Source of the DNA: Nitrospinaceae bacterium
GTDB taxonomy: Bacteria > Nitrospinota_A > UBA7883 > JAJDBK01
Length of the DNA: 56,408 bases
Assembly (NCBI GenBank): GCA_029261405.1
Contig: JAJDBK010000010.1
Span: 1-56,408 of the forward strand
Reading direction: 5' to 3'
Position 1 is the stretch's first letter; each line of letters opens with the position of its first letter. A program made the position numbers and the translations under genes. Under the pieces are notes generated by a model. The model was not told where the DNA came from. It was given only the letters and a program-made list of their open reading frames with translations, and made no database searches. Below, piece by piece: positions 1 through 56,408 of the stretch.

Positions 1-141
1 GCAAATGGGCCAAAACCGGGCAGAATCAGAGCGCATATTCACAAAGATCATCGTAACAGTCGAACGTAAATTAAGCGTCACGCCAGAAACAGCATAATAA
101 TTACCACTTTGCCGGTATTTGACCTGTTTGGCGACAGACCC
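1..141. repeat. Left copy of a 141-bp inverted repeat
   Basis: This stretch is the reverse complement of 55051-55191, with two mismatches that I can find (positions 3 and 27). It ends at the REP-like motif GGCGACAGACCC (130-141). It has no convincing reading frame in either direction. It is likely the end or non-coding part of a mobile element. The copy starts at the window edge, so its true left boundary is unknown. Confidence 0.9.
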
Positions 142-239
142 ATAAATGGCGTGCGCTCGACGCACCGAAACGATTGGCAGAAATCATCGAAGGAGTCCAA
201 TTCATCAACGGAGAACGGAAACTAAAACGCGCCACCTGA
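142..239 (+). pseudogene. C-terminal remnant of an unidentified, probably mobile-element, protein
   Basis: An open frame runs from the repeat boundary to a TGA at 237-239 and encodes about 31 residues, including KRLAEIIEGVQFINGE. It has no start codon or ribosome binding site of its own, and the frame closes upstream at a TGA at 120-122. It abuts the inverted repeat, so I read it as the last part of a transposase-like gene whose 5' part was lost. I cannot name the family with confidence. Confidence 0.4.
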
Positions 240-257
240 TATGTCAGAACACAACAT

Positions 258-287
258 TTGACAATAACTTCAGATAGAGAGTAAACT
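258..287 (+). promoter_or_regulatory. Candidate sigma-70 promoter of the Anbu operon
   Basis: TTGACA at 258-263 is a perfect -35 box. TAAACT at 282-287 is a 4/6 match to the -10 box, with 18-base spacing. The predicted start near 294 lies about 20 bases before the first ATG of the operon. The promoter sits just after the stop of the upstream remnant, so the operon probably has its own transcription start. Confidence 0.5.
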
Positions 288-315
288 GAACGTTTGGACT
301 AGAGAGGTGTCGGGC

Positions 316-1755
316 ATGGGTTTGAATATAGAAAAATACCTGACCGACGGCTTTTACGACGAGCTTTTTCTTGGAGATGGAATCCCCCGGGAAGCCGCAT
401 CGCTTCTGGTGCAACGCCTGACAGACCTTTCAACCGACGAAATAAAACTACGACAACAGGCTGCCGAGGCGGCTCTCTACAAGATGGGAATTACTTTTGG
501 GGTATACGGCTCCCTTGACGCAGAGGAGAAGATATTTCCCTTCGACATCATCCCCCGGATTATTGACGGCGATGACTGGGGGCTGCTAGAAGCGGGGCTG
601 AAACAACGCGTCCATGCTCTCAACCTCTTTCTCGACGATATTTACACTGATCAACGCATTCTGAAGGAAAGAATTGTCCCGCAAGAATTAATCGACTCCT
701 GCGCGGCTTTTAGAAGGGAGCTTGTCGGTTTTAGTCCACCAAAAGGGATATGGTGCCATATCTCGGGGGTCGATCTCATACGTGACGAGTCGGGTGTGTT
801 CCATGTCCTGGAAGACAACCTGCGCTCCCCCTCCGGCGTATCCTATGTGCTCGAAAATCGGGAGGTCCTCAAGCATACTTTTCCACGGGTTTTTGGCCCC
901 TCCCGGGTTCGGCCAGTGGAAGACTATCCCAACCAGCTTCTCGGCATGCTCGAAAGCCTTGCCCCACAATCGGTGGACGAGCCATCGGTGGCTGTTCTTA
1001 CTCCAGGGGTTTTCAACAGCGCCTATTTCGAACATACGTTCCTTGCCAAGCAGATGGGCGTTCGGCTCGTTGAAGGACGTGATCTTGTGGTGCAGGATGA
1101 TTTTGTCTACGCCAGAACAACACGAGGATTCGAGAGGATCGATGTTATCTATCGCCGCATCGACGATGACTTTCTAGATCCGCATGTTTTCAGGCCTGAT
1201 TCATTGCTGGGAGTGCCAGGAATCATCGACGCCTACCGGAAGGGAAGGGTGGCCCTCGCCAATGCTCCCGGTTGTGGTGTGGCAGACGATAAGGCAGTGT
1301 ACGCCTACGTCGAAAAAATCATTCGGTTCTATCTCTCCGAAGAGCCCATCATCCCCAATGTGCCGACCTACATCTGCTCCGACGCAACCGACAGAAAATA
1401 TGTCATCGAGCATATCGACCAACTGGTAGTCAAGGCGGTGAACGAATCGGGAGGGTATGGCATGCTCATCGGCCCCCATGCCACCCCCGATGAACGGGCC
1501 GAATTCGTCAAGAAAATCGAGGCTGCCCCCAGAAACTACATCGGCCAGCCGACACTTTCCTTGTCCCGCGCCCCCATTATCGCCGATGACCGGGTGGAGG
1601 GGCGGCATGTTGATTTGCGACCCTATATACTCTATAGCGATAACATTTATGTCCTTCCCGGCGGTCTGACTCGTGTGGCCCTCAAAAAAGGCTCTTTGGT
1701 AGTCAACTCCAGCCAGGGAGGGGGAAGCAAAGACACCTGGGTGGTGGATCGATAA
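316..1755 (+). CDS. Circularly permuted ATP-grasp type 2 protein of the Anbu cluster
   Basis: First gene of a four-gene operon. The 479-residue product matches the circularly permuted ATP-grasp family (COG2308, former DUF404/DUF407). Visible signatures are EDNLRSPSG near residue 166 and a glycine-rich GGGSKDTWV end. These proteins are predicted ATP-dependent amide or peptide ligases, but their substrate is unknown. I prefer the ATG at 316 because AGAGAGG (301-307) lies at ideal distance; a GTG at 307 would overlap that site. The next gene starts 15 bases after the stop. It travels with alpha-E, Anbu and transglutaminase genes in many bacteria, and this context supports a peptide-tagging or peptide-synthesis role by inference only. 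Confidence 0.9.
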   Translation: MGLNIEKYLTDGFYDELFLGDGIPREAASLLVQRLTDLSTDEIKLRQQAAEAALYKMGITFGVYGSLDAEEKIFPFDIIPRIIDGDDWGLLEAGLKQRVHALNLFLDDIYTDQRILKERIVPQELIDSCAAFRRELVGFSPPKGIWCHISGVDLIRDESGVFHVLEDNLRSPSGVSYVLENREVLKHTFPRVFGPSRVRPVEDYPNQLLGMLESLAPQSVDEPSVAVLTPGVFNSAYFEHTFLAKQMGVRLVEGRDLVVQDDFVYARTTRGFERIDVIYRRIDDDFLDPHVFRPDSLLGVPGIIDAYRKGRVALANAPGCGVADDKAVYAYVEKIIRFYLSEEPIIPNVPTYICSDATDRKYVIEHIDQLVVKAVNESGGYGMLIGPHATPDERAEFVKKIEAAPRNYIGQPTLSLSRAPIIADDRVEGRHVDLRPYILYSDNIYVLPGGLTRVALKKGSLVVNSSQGGGSKDTWVVDR

Positions 1756-1770
1756 GAAAGTGATACGACA

Positions 1771-2763
1771 ATGACCGAAGCCATGATCTCCCGGGTTGCC
1801 GACGCCGTCTACTGGATGAGCCGATACGTCGAGAGAGCCGAAAACGTCGCACGGTTCGTCGACGTGAATCACTATCTGACACTTGACATGCCGATGGATG
1901 AAACGGCGCAGTGGCGACCCATGCTGGAGGTGACCGGTGACCTGGCCTCTTTCGCGGAGCGTTACCCAGAAAGCAACCAACGTAGCGTTGTACAATTCCT
2001 GGTGTTTGACATAGAGAACCCCAACTCCATTATTTCGTGCCTGCGGGCGTCCCGGGAAAACGCCAGGACCGTCCGGGAAGCCATCAGCTCCGAGCTATGG
2101 CGCCAGATAAACGGCATGTATCACACCGTGCGAAACGCCTCCCATGATGAGGCCATCTATGACGAACCCCATCCTTTTCTTGAGACGGTCAAAGAGGGGT
2201 GCAATCAGGTGACAGGCATCACAGAGGCGACCATGTCCCATGATGAGGCGTGGCACTTTGCTCGGCTCGGCAGGATGATCGAGCGGGCCGACAAGACCTC
2301 TCGCATATTGGATGTGAAATATTTTCTGTTGCTCCCGGGTGTCGATTATGTCGGAACTCCCTACGACAAGATCCAGTGGGCGGCGGTGCTTAAGTCGGCC
2401 AGCGCGCTGGAGATGTATCGCAAGAAATATCGGCGCATCACCCCGAAGCAGATCGGGAGTTTTTTGATCTTCAACCGACATTTCCCCCGGTCCATTCACT
2501 ACTGCCTTGAGGCGGCGTCCCAATCGCTACATGCCATATCGGGTTCGCCTCACTCATCTTTTACCAATGTGGCGGAGCGGCGTTTGGGACGTCTCTGCGC
2601 CGATATCGATTTCTCGGATGTCGACGAGGTATTTGACGCCGGTATGCACCAATACCTTGATTATATTCAGGCGCGTCTCAATGAGATTGGCGAAGCGGTG
2701 TTCGACACATATTTTTCACTTGCCCCAGCGGCCATCGCCGACGGCTTCAGGAGTAACGCTTAA
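1771..2763 (+). CDS. Alpha-E domain protein (DUF403)
   Basis: The 330-residue, largely helical, soluble protein belongs to the alpha-E family (COG2307). It begins with the typical ISRVADAVYWMSRYVERAE signature around residues 6-24. No catalytic motif is evident. In known clusters it always sits beside the circularly permuted ATP-grasp protein and is thought to act with it, but its biochemical role is undefined. The stop codon overlaps the next start as TAATG at 2761-2765, so translation of the Anbu peptidase is probably coupled to it. Confidence 0.9.
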   Translation: MTEAMISRVADAVYWMSRYVERAENVARFVDVNHYLTLDMPMDETAQWRPMLEVTGDLASFAERYPESNQRSVVQFLVFDIENPNSIISCLRASRENARTVREAISSELWRQINGMYHTVRNASHDEAIYDEPHPFLETVKEGCNQVTGITEATMSHDEAWHFARLGRMIERADKTSRILDVKYFLLLPGVDYVGTPYDKIQWAAVLKSASALEMYRKKYRRITPKQIGSFLIFNRHFPRSIHYCLEAASQSLHAISGSPHSSFTNVAERRLGRLCADIDFSDVDEVFDAGMHQYLDYIQARLNEIGEAVFDTYFSLAPAAIADGFRSNA

Positions 2764-3503
2764 TGACATTTTGTCTCGGCATGAAAGTGCGCAACGGTTT
2801 GGTGGGGCTTGCAGACACCAGAGTGACCACCGGTGTGGAACAGATAACGGCGCGTAAGGTCACCATTCACGAACATGGGCGCCACTCCATGTTTCTGATG
2901 ACCTCGGGGCTTCGGTCGCTCCGCGACAAGGCGCTCACCTATTTTGAAGAGACCATCGAAGAACGGGACGAGTCCTTCGACAAACTGTATAAGGCGGTCA
3001 ACGCTTTTGCCACGCAGGTAAGACGGGTGGTGGAAGAGGACAGAAAGGCGCTTGAGGAGGCGGGATTGACTATCAACCTCTTTTCCATCATCGGAGGGCA
3101 ACTTGAAAACGATACCGAGCATAAACTCTACCTGCTCTATCCGCAAGGGAACTGGGTGGAAGTTTCCGAAGGAACTCCCTACTACATCATCGGTGAATCG
3201 AGTTATGGAAAGCCTATACTCGACAGGGTGCTCACCTATGATTCGAGCATCAAGGAGGCGTTGAAGGTAGGTTACCTTGCCTTCGACAGCACACGTATCG
3301 CCGCTACCGATGTCGGGTTTCCGGTCGATTTAGTGTACTATCAGCGAGGCACCTTCGATATAGTCTGCCATCGATACATCAAGGATGATCTGGTGGGTCT
3401 GGGCGACTGGTGGCAGCATCATCTTCGATCCGGGGTAGAAGAGTTTCCCGCCGACTGGATGGAGCCTCTGCTGAAGAAGGCCATCAAGAGGCAGTCTGTC
3501 TGA
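2763..3503 (+). CDS. Anbu peptidase (proteasome-type self-assembling protease)
   Basis: The 246-residue protein starts MTFCLGMKVRNGLVGLADTR, typical of Anbu (ancestral beta subunit, COG3484). The family uses an N-terminal Thr nucleophile exposed after Met removal. Here Thr2, Asp18 and Lys32 are in the expected places, so the active site looks intact. Homologues assemble into open ring or helical particles that differ from the closed 20S barrel. No AAA unfoldase or Pup gene lies beside it, consistent with the usual Anbu cluster. The physiological substrate is not known. It is the third gene of the operon and is coupled to alpha-E by a TAATG overlap. Confidence 0.93.
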   Translation: MTFCLGMKVRNGLVGLADTRVTTGVEQITARKVTIHEHGRHSMFLMTSGLRSLRDKALTYFEETIEERDESFDKLYKAVNAFATQVRRVVEEDRKALEEAGLTINLFSIIGGQLENDTEHKLYLLYPQGNWVEVSEGTPYYIIGESSYGKPILDRVLTYDSSIKEALKVGYLAFDSTRIAATDVGFPVDLVYYQRGTFDIVCHRYIKDDLVGLGDWWQHHLRSGVEEFPADWMEPLLKKAIKRQSV

Positions 3504-4374: not shown

Positions 4375-4554
4375 TCAAGCACGTTCAATTCCGTCAGGAG
4401 CGTGGGCGACTCGTATGAATATTATGCCACACTCAAAGACGAATTGCTATTCGGCGACAGACCCATACAGGATCGCTACGCCAATGTCACAAGGGCATCA
4501 CGACAATCTGTAGTACAAATCCGTCCAAAGGGGGGAAAAGAAAATTCGGGCTAA
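4375..4554 (+). pseudogene. Remnant of an IS3-type transposase (OrfB) reading into foreign sequence
   Basis: An open stretch of 59 codons without a start encodes FNSVRSVGDSYEYYATLKDE and more. The SVGDSY and ATLKDELL segments resemble the region around the catalytic Glu of IS3-family integrases. The usual stretch between them, which carries that Glu, appears deleted. After ELLFGDRP the similarity is lost; that point coincides with the REP-like motif GGCGACAGACCC (4453-4464). I infer a decayed insertion. The 320 bases between the transglutaminase gene and the tRNA hold nothing else that looks like a gene. Confidence 0.45.
4442..4464 (+). repeat. 23-bp repeat containing the REP-like motif (copy 1)
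   Basis: These 23 bases recur identically at 45402-45424. The last 12, GGCGACAGACCC, also end the two long inverted repeats (130-141 and, reversed, 55051-55062). Flanks differ between copies. The motif recalls the ends of REP sequences mobilised by Y1-type transposases, but no such transposase lies in the window. Confidence 0.7.
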
Positions 4555-4670: not shown

Positions 4671-4747
4671 TGGTAGCGGAGGAGGGACTCGAACCCCCGA
4701 CAAAACGGATATGAGCCGTTTGCTCTAACCACCTGAGCTACTCCGCC
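4671..4747 (-). tRNA. tRNA-Met (anticodon CAT)
   Basis: A full cloverleaf can be drawn on the minus strand. The acceptor stem GGCGGAG pairs with CTCCGCT through one G-U pair. The anticodon stem is ACGG/CCGT around loop CTCATAT, the T arm contains GGTTCGAGTCC, and CCA is encoded. The first base pair is not the C-A mismatch of initiators, so elongator Met is most likely. An Ile2 tRNA with modified CAT cannot be excluded by eye. Confidence 0.95.
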
Positions 4748-6529: not shown

Positions 6530-6948
6530 TTGAAAGAGGCCGATCGTAAGCCGGATTCTGTCCCGGTCAGTTCCCGAGAGAACCGACCGATGATGACCAT
6601 TCCTCTAGCTGTAGCGTTGCCGATACAGTCAAGCGGCCTACCCGGAAACAACGGCGAGCAACCATCTGCGAGGAGGCTAACCCCCTTGCGTGTTTCCCTA
6701 TTCGGCCTTGCACCGGGCAGGGCTTGCCGTGCCAGTGATGTCGCCACCACTGCGGTGAGCTCTTACCTCGCCATTTCACCCTTGCTCCTGAAGACTTTTT
6801 ACGGCCTCCGGTTAGCGGTATATTTTCTGTGGCGCTTTCCCTGGGGTCACCCCCGCTCTCCGTTAGAGAGTACCCTGCTCGTTGGTGTCCGGACTTTCCT
6901 CCCGAAGGGGCTATATACCCAACCGGCGGTCATCTCTCGACCTCTTTC
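6530..6948 (-). ncRNA. rnpB: RNase P RNA, bacterial class A
   Basis: The minus strand carries the catalytic RNA that matures tRNA 5' ends. I see the P1 stem (GAAAGAGG... with ...CCTCTTTC at the two ends) and the universal GAGGAAAGTCCGGAC of P4 (6887-6901). A central AGGGTGAAATGGCGAGGTAAGAGC-type region is present, as is the closing ACAGAATCCGGCTTAC (near 6543-6558). The length of about 419 nt is normal for type A. It starts only eight bases after the stop codon of the upstream zinc-ribbon gene, so its promoter lies inside that gene or it is cut from a common transcript. Reading frames across this region are not real genes. Confidence 0.95.
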
Positions 6949-20710: not shown

Positions 20711-21139
20711 CTACTGAAAATTCTTCTTAAGAACGTTTATGGCCTTCTCGTGTTTTCGTTTGGCCGCTTTCTCAAACCAGCTTTTTGCCTCTTCCAGGTT
20801 TTTATTTACCCCTTCACCCTTGAAATAGTAGATTCCGAGGTTGTATTCCGCTTTGGCATACCCCTTATTAGCGGCTATAAGTTGCCATCTTACCGCCTCC
20901 ACCATGTCTTGCCGCACACCCTCTCCGAGGTTATAGCAGTTTGCCAGGCTGAATTGACCGTAAAGATCGGCCTGTTCCGCGGCTATACGAAGCCATTTAA
21001 CCGCCGAGGTCCCATCCGCCTCAAGACACGGCGCCCCGGTATCGTATGACAAACCAGAGGGGGAGTCTTCCGCCATGGAGAAATCTGAACCTGTAAGAGT
21101 CAATGATAATAGTGCAACCATGATAATGCGCTGGATCAT
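20711..21139 (-). CDS. Secreted or periplasmic Sel1-repeat protein
   Basis: The 142-residue protein has a likely signal peptide (about 1-23) followed by tandem Sel1-like helical repeats. Recognisable units are AVKWLRIAAEQADLYGQFSL, AVRWQLIAANKGYAKAEYNL and AKSWFEKAAKRKHEKAI, each about 36 residues. Such repeats mediate protein contacts. A specific partner cannot be named. It stands alone and is divergent from the cNMP-binding protein gene, with about 260 bases between them. Confidence 0.85.
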   Translation of the reverse strand: MIQRIIMVALLSLTLTGSDFSMAEDSPSGLSYDTGAPCLEADGTSAVKWLRIAAEQADLYGQFSLANCYNLGEGVRQDMVEAVRWQLIAANKGYAKAEYNLGIYYFKGEGVNKNLEEAKSWFEKAAKRKHEKAINVLKKNFQ

Positions 21140-45401: not shown

Positions 45402-45424
45402 AATTGCTATTCGGCGACAGACCC
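45402..45424 (+). repeat. 23-bp repeat containing the REP-like motif (copy 2)
   Basis: Identical to 4442-4464. It lies in the 92-base gap between the diguanylate cyclase and the convergent receiver gene. Flanks differ, so it is not a longer duplication. It may be the debris of a mobile element. Confidence 0.7.
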
Positions 45425-54738: not shown

Positions 54739-55050
54739 TTTGCCATTCCTTGGTTGATGACTTTTACGACTTTAATAGTGCGCTTAACCTATAATCCTAC
54801 GATGACAAGAATCATTGAGAAATCTAGTCATATTATAGCCTGTATTGGCGATGCTATACCGCACCTCAACTCTGCATGTTTAATACTACTTCAAGTAGTG
54901 AATTTATCTTGAGTCATATCACTCATATAAACACTACGCGCAAAGGGAGCAATAATGGCACCAAAGCATAAAAATGCAAACTCTAAGTATATCATTTGGT
55001 TATCCCTTATGCCAGCTTCTCAAGTTTCATAGCGGCGCCTTGCCGTTGCC
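54739..55050. other. Intergenic region upstream of the MHYT gene
   Basis: No gene is visible. The stretch is AT rich. It holds a palindrome, ACTACTT-C-AAGTAGT, at 54885-54899 that could be an operator, and several TATAAT-like boxes but no matched promoter for the minus-strand gene. Beyond it begins the inverted repeat copy. Confidence 0.5.
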
Positions 55051-55191
55051 GGGTCTGTCGCCAAACAGGTCAAATACCGGCAAAGTGGTAATTATTATGC
55101 TGTTTCTGGCGTGACGCTTAATTTACGTTCGACTGTTACGATGATCTTTGTGAATATGCGCTCTGGTTCTGCCCGGTTTTGGCCCATTAGC
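55051..55191. repeat. Right copy of the 141-bp inverted repeat
   Basis: Reverse complement of 1-141 with two mismatches. It begins with GGGTCTGTCGCC, the complement of the REP-like motif. It lies 32 bases from the transposase fragment at 55223-55426. I found no third copy in the window. Confidence 0.9.
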
Positions 55192-55222
55192 CAGGATTTG
55201 GGCGCAACTATCCTGTTACCGG

Positions 55223-55426
55223 TCAAGTTTCAAGGGCAACTATCTGATCCTTAATCCTGACCCAGCGTTTCAGGTTGTGACCCAGAACTTCCATGAACCC
55301 TTGAAACTGAACCTTACTCGCATTCTTTGAGCGCCTGAGACCCCGGTGTGATCGTAGATGCTTGGTCAACTTCTTCTTGAGCGCGCCACGGGTTTGAACG
55401 AACAGGCTGCCGCATTCAAGTAGCAA
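55223..55426 (-). pseudogene. C-terminal fragment of a transposase (IS1182/IS5-like)
   Basis: The minus strand codes 67 residues that end in a block GLRRSKNASKVQFQGFMEVL followed by GHNLKRWVRI. The pattern of GLRR, then a helix, then HNLKR is typical of the end of DDE transposases of the IS1182 or IS5 type. The rest of the gene is missing, and the start codon is probably not natural. It lies between the inverted repeat and the IS66 element. Confidence 0.5.
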
Positions 55427-55511
55427 GGTAACCGTTCAATGTTCCGCATCTTTTCTTGTGAGTAATTGTTTGTCATGATTGTCCTTCGATATTCATTGGA
55501 AGGTAATCCGT

Positions 55512-55874
55512 ATGAAAGGTTCCAAGAGGATTGGCGGTAAAAGTCGGAGTACGGTATTTTGGGAAAAGCATGTTGATGCGTGGAGCCTTGATGGATCTAC
55601 CCAGACTGAGTATTGCCGTCGCCATAATCTCAGTCTGACGGCGTTCGGTTACTGGAAGAGAAAACTTGTATCCCCTGACATGGCAAAGAGAGAGGAGCTT
55701 GCCGCCCCGGGAGAGTTCGTCGAAGTCAGGCTGAATGAAACCCCCGAACCTTTTGTACAATCCACCTCGAATCTGAAACTTCTGGTCGGCGATGAGTTCA
55801 CCATCGAGGTGGGCGATCGGTTCAGCCCCGATTCGCTCAGAAGTCTTGTTGCTGTTCTTCGTGATCTTTCCTGA
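55512..55874 (+). CDS. tnpA: IS66 accessory protein TnpA
   Basis: The 120-residue protein has the small helix-turn-helix pattern of IS66 TnpA: WEKHVDAWSLDGSTQTEYCR, then LTAFGYWKRKL. GGAAGG precedes the ATG at 55512 at a proper distance, so I prefer it to a TTG at 55479. It overlaps tnpB by 14 bases, suggesting translational coupling. Its role is DNA recognition in transposition. Confidence 0.88.
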   Translation: MKGSKRIGGKSRSTVFWEKHVDAWSLDGSTQTEYCRRHNLSLTAFGYWKRKLVSPDMAKREELAAPGEFVEVRLNETPEPFVQSTSNLKLLVGDEFTIEVGDRFSPDSLRSLVAVLRDLS

Positions 55875-56217
55875 ACAGCGGCGCACCAGGGTTTTCCTCG
55901 GCCTTGGCGTAACCGACATGCGCAAATCGATCAACGGTCTGTCGGCTCTTGTGGAGTCGCTGTTCGATCTTGATCCTTTCTCCGGTCATTTTTTCGTCTT
56001 TTCAAACCGGCGGCGCAACATCGTCAAGATATTGTACTGGGACCGAAACGGTTTTTGTCTCTGGCACAAGCGTCTTGAGAAGGAGCGGTTCTGCTGGCCC
56101 GGAGAGGATGGTGAGTCTCTTGAGATCGACCATCAAAAGCTTGGCTGGTTACTTGACGGGCTTGATTATTCCCGTATCAAGGGTCATAAAAAGTTAAGTT
56201 ACAGCACGGTTTTATAA
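55861..56217 (+). CDS. tnpB: IS66 accessory protein TnpB
   Basis: The 118-residue protein begins MIFPEQRRTRVFLGLGVTDM and has NGLSALVESLFDLDPFSGHF and KILYWDRNGFCLWHKRLEKE, the TnpB pattern of IS66. It starts with GTG at 55861 inside the end of tnpA. IS66 transposition needs both accessory proteins besides the DDE transposase. Length is usual, so this copy is probably intact. Confidence 0.9.
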   Translation: MIFPEQRRTRVFLGLGVTDMRKSINGLSALVESLFDLDPFSGHFFVFSNRRRNIVKILYWDRNGFCLWHKRLEKERFCWPGEDGESLEIDHQKLGWLLDGLDYSRIKGHKKLSYSTVL

Positions 56218-56298
56218 TGTGGTGAACTCGTTGTGAAAAACAGGAAGAAACCGCCATTAACAGCTTGATATATCAGGTGGTTATGGTATGATTCTGTT

Positions 56299-56408
56299 GT
56301 GAATATCAATACCGTAAACCTTCCCGATAATCCTCAGGCTCTCAAGGAAATAGTCATTTCGTTACAGGAACAAATCCGCCATCTTCTCGCCAAACTTTAC
56401 GGTAGCAA
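56299..56408 (+). CDS. tnpC: IS66 transposase TnpC, 5' part
   Basis: The frame from GTG at 56299 gives 36 residues to the window end, including NPQALKEIVISLQEQIRHLL, the coiled-coil leader of IS66 transposases. The zinc-finger and DDE domains lie beyond the window. The gap after tnpB is 81 bases, longer than in most IS66 members. Confidence 0.7.
   Translation, partial: MNINTVNLPDNPQALKEIVISLQEQIRHLLAKLYGS

Follow-up and report, generated by a model that had tools for sequence, protein, structure and literature searches.

The window, that is, the whole stretch of DNA analysed here (56,408 nucleotides), is an entire contig (C10, 1-56408) of a 3.27-Mb assembly in 81 contigs; accordingly, its base 1 is a contig edge. 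Bases 1-141 are the reverse complement of bases 55051-55191 except for two mismatches, at position 3 (A/T) and position 26 (T/C). The original prediction of a 141-bp inverted repeat with two differing positions is thus borne out by direct comparison, and searching the genome from which the window comes yields the same match with E = 4e-66 and 99% identity, which far exceeds chance. The prediction also placed the copies at both ends of the window. This is true of the left copy, which starts at base 1, but 1.2 kb separate the right copy, which is assembled through unbroken, from the end of the contig (56408).

Each copy adjoins transposase debris, as had been noticed from the sequence: on the left, the debris is IS256-like (a weak match), and on the right, a transposase C-terminus remnant is followed by an IS66-family element (Table 1). 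The latter, which carries both tnpA and tnpB and is distinct from the repeat, interrupts the right copy at about position 55428 and is truncated where the contig stops. The flanks of the two copies are unlike each other. When searched against the genome, the flank at 54930-55050 matches only itself, and the one at 142-306 has a single other match, of 32 bases. Pieces that by eye resemble the C-terminus of an IS30-like transposase adjoin several of the insertion sequence (IS) ends described below (L025 1-171, L038 around 1501, and 55400-55426 of the window).

Table 1. Features of the window, by position in the whole stretch
Feature	Coordinates	Strand	Evidence
Right (3') end of a decayed IS1182-type IS, cut at the contig edge (base 1), with its upstream part absent from the assembly	1..141	+	Equals C14:1-141; first 101 bases equal the end of C81
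Right terminal inverted repeat GGCGACAGACCC (read outward)	130..141	+	12/12 bases against the left end GGGTCTGTCGCC on C81, 16/19 when extended
IS256-like transposase C-terminus debris abutting the IS end	142..237	+	tblastn against sequences annotated 'IS256 family transposase': weak hits, E about 0.01, with 30-31 aa aligned at 52-57% identity
Left-end relic of the same IS family, 52 bp	4413..4464	-	98% identical to IS positions 1-52
tRNA-Met gene	4671-4747	-	
RNase P RNA gene (class A)	6531-6945	-	
Relic resembling the family's left terminal repeat, 23 bp	45402..45424	-	Sequence match
Second right-end copy, differing by two substitutions	55051..55191	-	Search of own genome and direct comparison
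Rest of the 3' part of the right IS copy with transposase C-terminus remnant	55192..55427	-	55315-55226 aligns with the C62 copy
IS66-family element (tnpA 55479-55874, tnpB 55792-56217)	55428..56408	+	NF047593 TnpA, E 4e-16; NF033819 TnpB, E 9e-35; PF05717

The pair in the window is part of a larger set. A whole-genome search with the 141-mer, the check that the original prediction had proposed, retrieved further copies at 100% identity on C14 (bases 1-141) and at the end of C81 (its last 101 bases), as well as a partial match of 41 bases at 88% identity on C62. This right tail is therefore present at four assembly sites (C10 twice, C14, and C81), three of which are at contig ends, where short-read assemblies typically leave repeats, and a variant with a shorter tail is found on C62. 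In addition, left-end relics with the same terminal repeat occur in about ten places. The 52-bp relic inside the window falls within a short open reading frame at 4402-4554, which lies a short distance downstream of a transglutaminase-like gene. The suggestion that the repeats are two copies of one mobile element is supported by these additional right and left ends.

Several lines of evidence tie the element to the IS1182 family (NCBIfam NF033551; Pfam PF05598 and PF13751). The inner boundary of both window copies (bases 141 and 55051) ends in GGCGACAGACCC, a terminal inverted repeat of an IS1182-type IS. On C81, the matching left end GGGTCTGTCGCC is located at 20992 and is followed by a truncated transposase remnant and then by a tail equal to window bases 1-101, so that terminal inverted repeats are present at both element ends. 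The exact translation of the C81 remnant matches DUF772 (PF05598, E 9e-17) and the N-terminal part of the IS1182 model NF033551 (E 5e-14), and that of a C-terminal piece on C62 aligns with the end of NF033551 (positions 448-487 of 488, E 5e-5) and with DDE_Tnp_1_6 (PF13751, E 2e-5). These matches come from fragments and score well under the full-protein cut-off of 270 bits; together, the remnants match both ends of the model. As in the IS1182 family, there are terminal inverted repeats and multiple dispersed copies, several of them at unrelated sites.

Unlike typical members of that family, all copies seen here are decayed. The most complete one, of 932 bp with both terminal repeats, is obtained when C46 and C62 are joined through their 141-base overlap. 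It carries frameshifts and has no continuous transposase frame, and elsewhere there are fragments only; no intact transposase was found in the assembly. A target-site duplication could be looked for at the C46/C62 join, where the flanks share a repeat of at most 2 bases (GA); the two flanks of any other copy never lie on a single contig. The assembly contains no complete, intact copy that ends in the 141-bp type of tail, and the boundaries of the element on its inner side were therefore derived from C81 and from C46/C62. The copies are remnants of an IS1182-type IS, none of them an active member.

The copies differ in how they end. Positions 881-921 of the C46/C62 copy have 88% identity to window bases 1-41, and the copy on C62 (L005 268-319) ends 11 bases past the part shared with window 1-141. 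The C10, C14, and C81 copies instead continue for about 100 bases of different sequence that close with the terminal repeat, which gives the copies at issue a tail about 100 bp longer than that of C46/C62. Directly past the terminal repeat, window 55040-55050 and C14 142-152 share 11 extra bases, GGCAACGGCAA, which the left copy lacks at window base 142. It is conceivable, although rather unlikely, that this IS family changed its right end, given the tail that is present in four copies, absent in C46/C62, and still closed by a matching terminal repeat, with two of the copies (C14 and the right one on C10) sharing GGCAACGGCAA beyond it. The family may have captured a new end or inserted into a preferred target motif, which would explain the longer tail together with the common 11 bases, or a shared duplication might account for both.

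The length of 141 bases and the start at base 1 have a separate source. We compared 500 bases from either end of every contig, leaving out masked ends, which gave 159 ends read inward. Among these, 30 pairs are common for exactly 141 bases and then diverge, and 19 pairs are alike over 136-140 bases; no pair is alike over 15-135 bases or over more than 141. A joining-sense overlap of exactly 141 was observed in 16 further pairs. An apparent likeness over all 500 bases between C5 and C51 was due to masked N and was discarded. The left ends of C10 and C14 make up one of the 30 pairs, and the two contigs part at base 142, directly after GGCGACAGACCC. De Bruijn assembly at k = 141 gives this pattern; we infer that value from the overlaps, the records naming no assembler. 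Because base 1 is the edge of C10 and 141 is the longest stretch common to any contig ends, 141 is not a biological length: the outer limit at base 1 is a contig cut, and only the inner boundary, at bases 141 and 55051, is biological. As with other overlaps in an assembly graph, contig ends here are common for the exact k-mer length and then diverge, and this explains both the exact length of the repeat and its position at base 1, with no difference left over.

The same coincidence could be read as an assembly error, in which the first 141 bases were wrongly attached to C10, given that their length matches one assembler overlap exactly. But a de Bruijn overlap continues into read-supported bases, which here start at base 142, and the position of the junction coincides exactly with the terminal inverted repeat, as expected of a real IS insertion; we consider such an error highly improbable.

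The explanation that we regard as almost certainly correct is that the two window copies are right ends, out of at least four, of a small, heavily decayed IS1182-type family that spread by transposition in a Nitrospinota-like genome, with a contig break at the repeat. Under this scenario, ordinary transposition would have dispersed the copies, as suggested by terminal inverted repeats joined to unrelated flanks, and later decay would have followed as frameshifts and internal deletion occurred and other IS elements inserted. Assembly from short reads presumably could not pass identical copies and stopped at the repeat, so that C10 and C14 begin with an identical stretch of 141 bases. Such a stop would place one copy exactly at base 1 and make its length equal to the assembler's k.

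The original prediction also raised another possibility, namely, that the repeats frame the 55-kb segment and could invert it by recombination. On this reading, homologous recombination between the inverted copies would flip the segment in part of the population. Inverted copies that are 55 kb apart and 98.6% identical could, in principle, undergo rare RecA-dependent exchange. However, the frame arises from the contig cut at the repeat, and at least two other copies are equally or even more similar; because at least four copies of similar identity exist, the pair in the window is not special. Furthermore, the proteins tested beside both copies are IS66 parts and products of ordinary genes, with no recombinase gene linked to the repeats, and the unbroken assembly through the right copy also speaks against inversion. 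No evidence of a second orientation emerged. Recombination between the inverted copies thus remains a matter of principle that nothing here calls for, and we consider an inversion substrate very improbable.

Nor do the two copies seem to bound a composite transposon of 55 kb as its inverted ends. They do belong to the same IS family and turn the same end toward the segment, but none of the copies seen has a functional transposase, the flanks have no duplication in common, and the segment holds housekeeping features (RNase P RNA, tRNA-Met, and a cobA/hemD-type gene). Moreover, the neighbouring gene order is kept in related Nitrospinota over at least 315-3478. Taken together, these observations leave a composite transposon scarcely credible.

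The closest named relatives of a window gene come from two Nitrospinota metagenome-assembled genomes (L221 and L222), with 81-83% protein identity. When an empty site was looked for in them, homology began only at window positions 280-315, so the comparison covers the sequence from there on; neither genome has the IS. Among 60 genomes taken as relatives, a DNA search detected, besides the genome itself, only two weak, unrelated-looking matches (G023 and G031), which were set aside as stretches without a transposase frame in distant genomes. A scan of genome contigs for relatives of the N-terminal part of the transposase, with an approximate query spliced from two frames and 82-92% identical to its C81 source, retrieved none, and a literature search returned nothing specific.

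These results call for caution in reading repeats at contig boundaries. Where a contig of this assembly begins or ends in a repeat of exactly 141 bases, that repeat is an assembler overlap, and copies of repeats, for example, mobile elements, lie at many of the contig edges. An inverted-repeat frame around a window should therefore be compared with the assembly before inversion is proposed. As for the organism itself, the repeat pair is ordinary mobile-element debris rather than an inversion switch, and the IS family to which it belongs is a decayed member of an already known kind.
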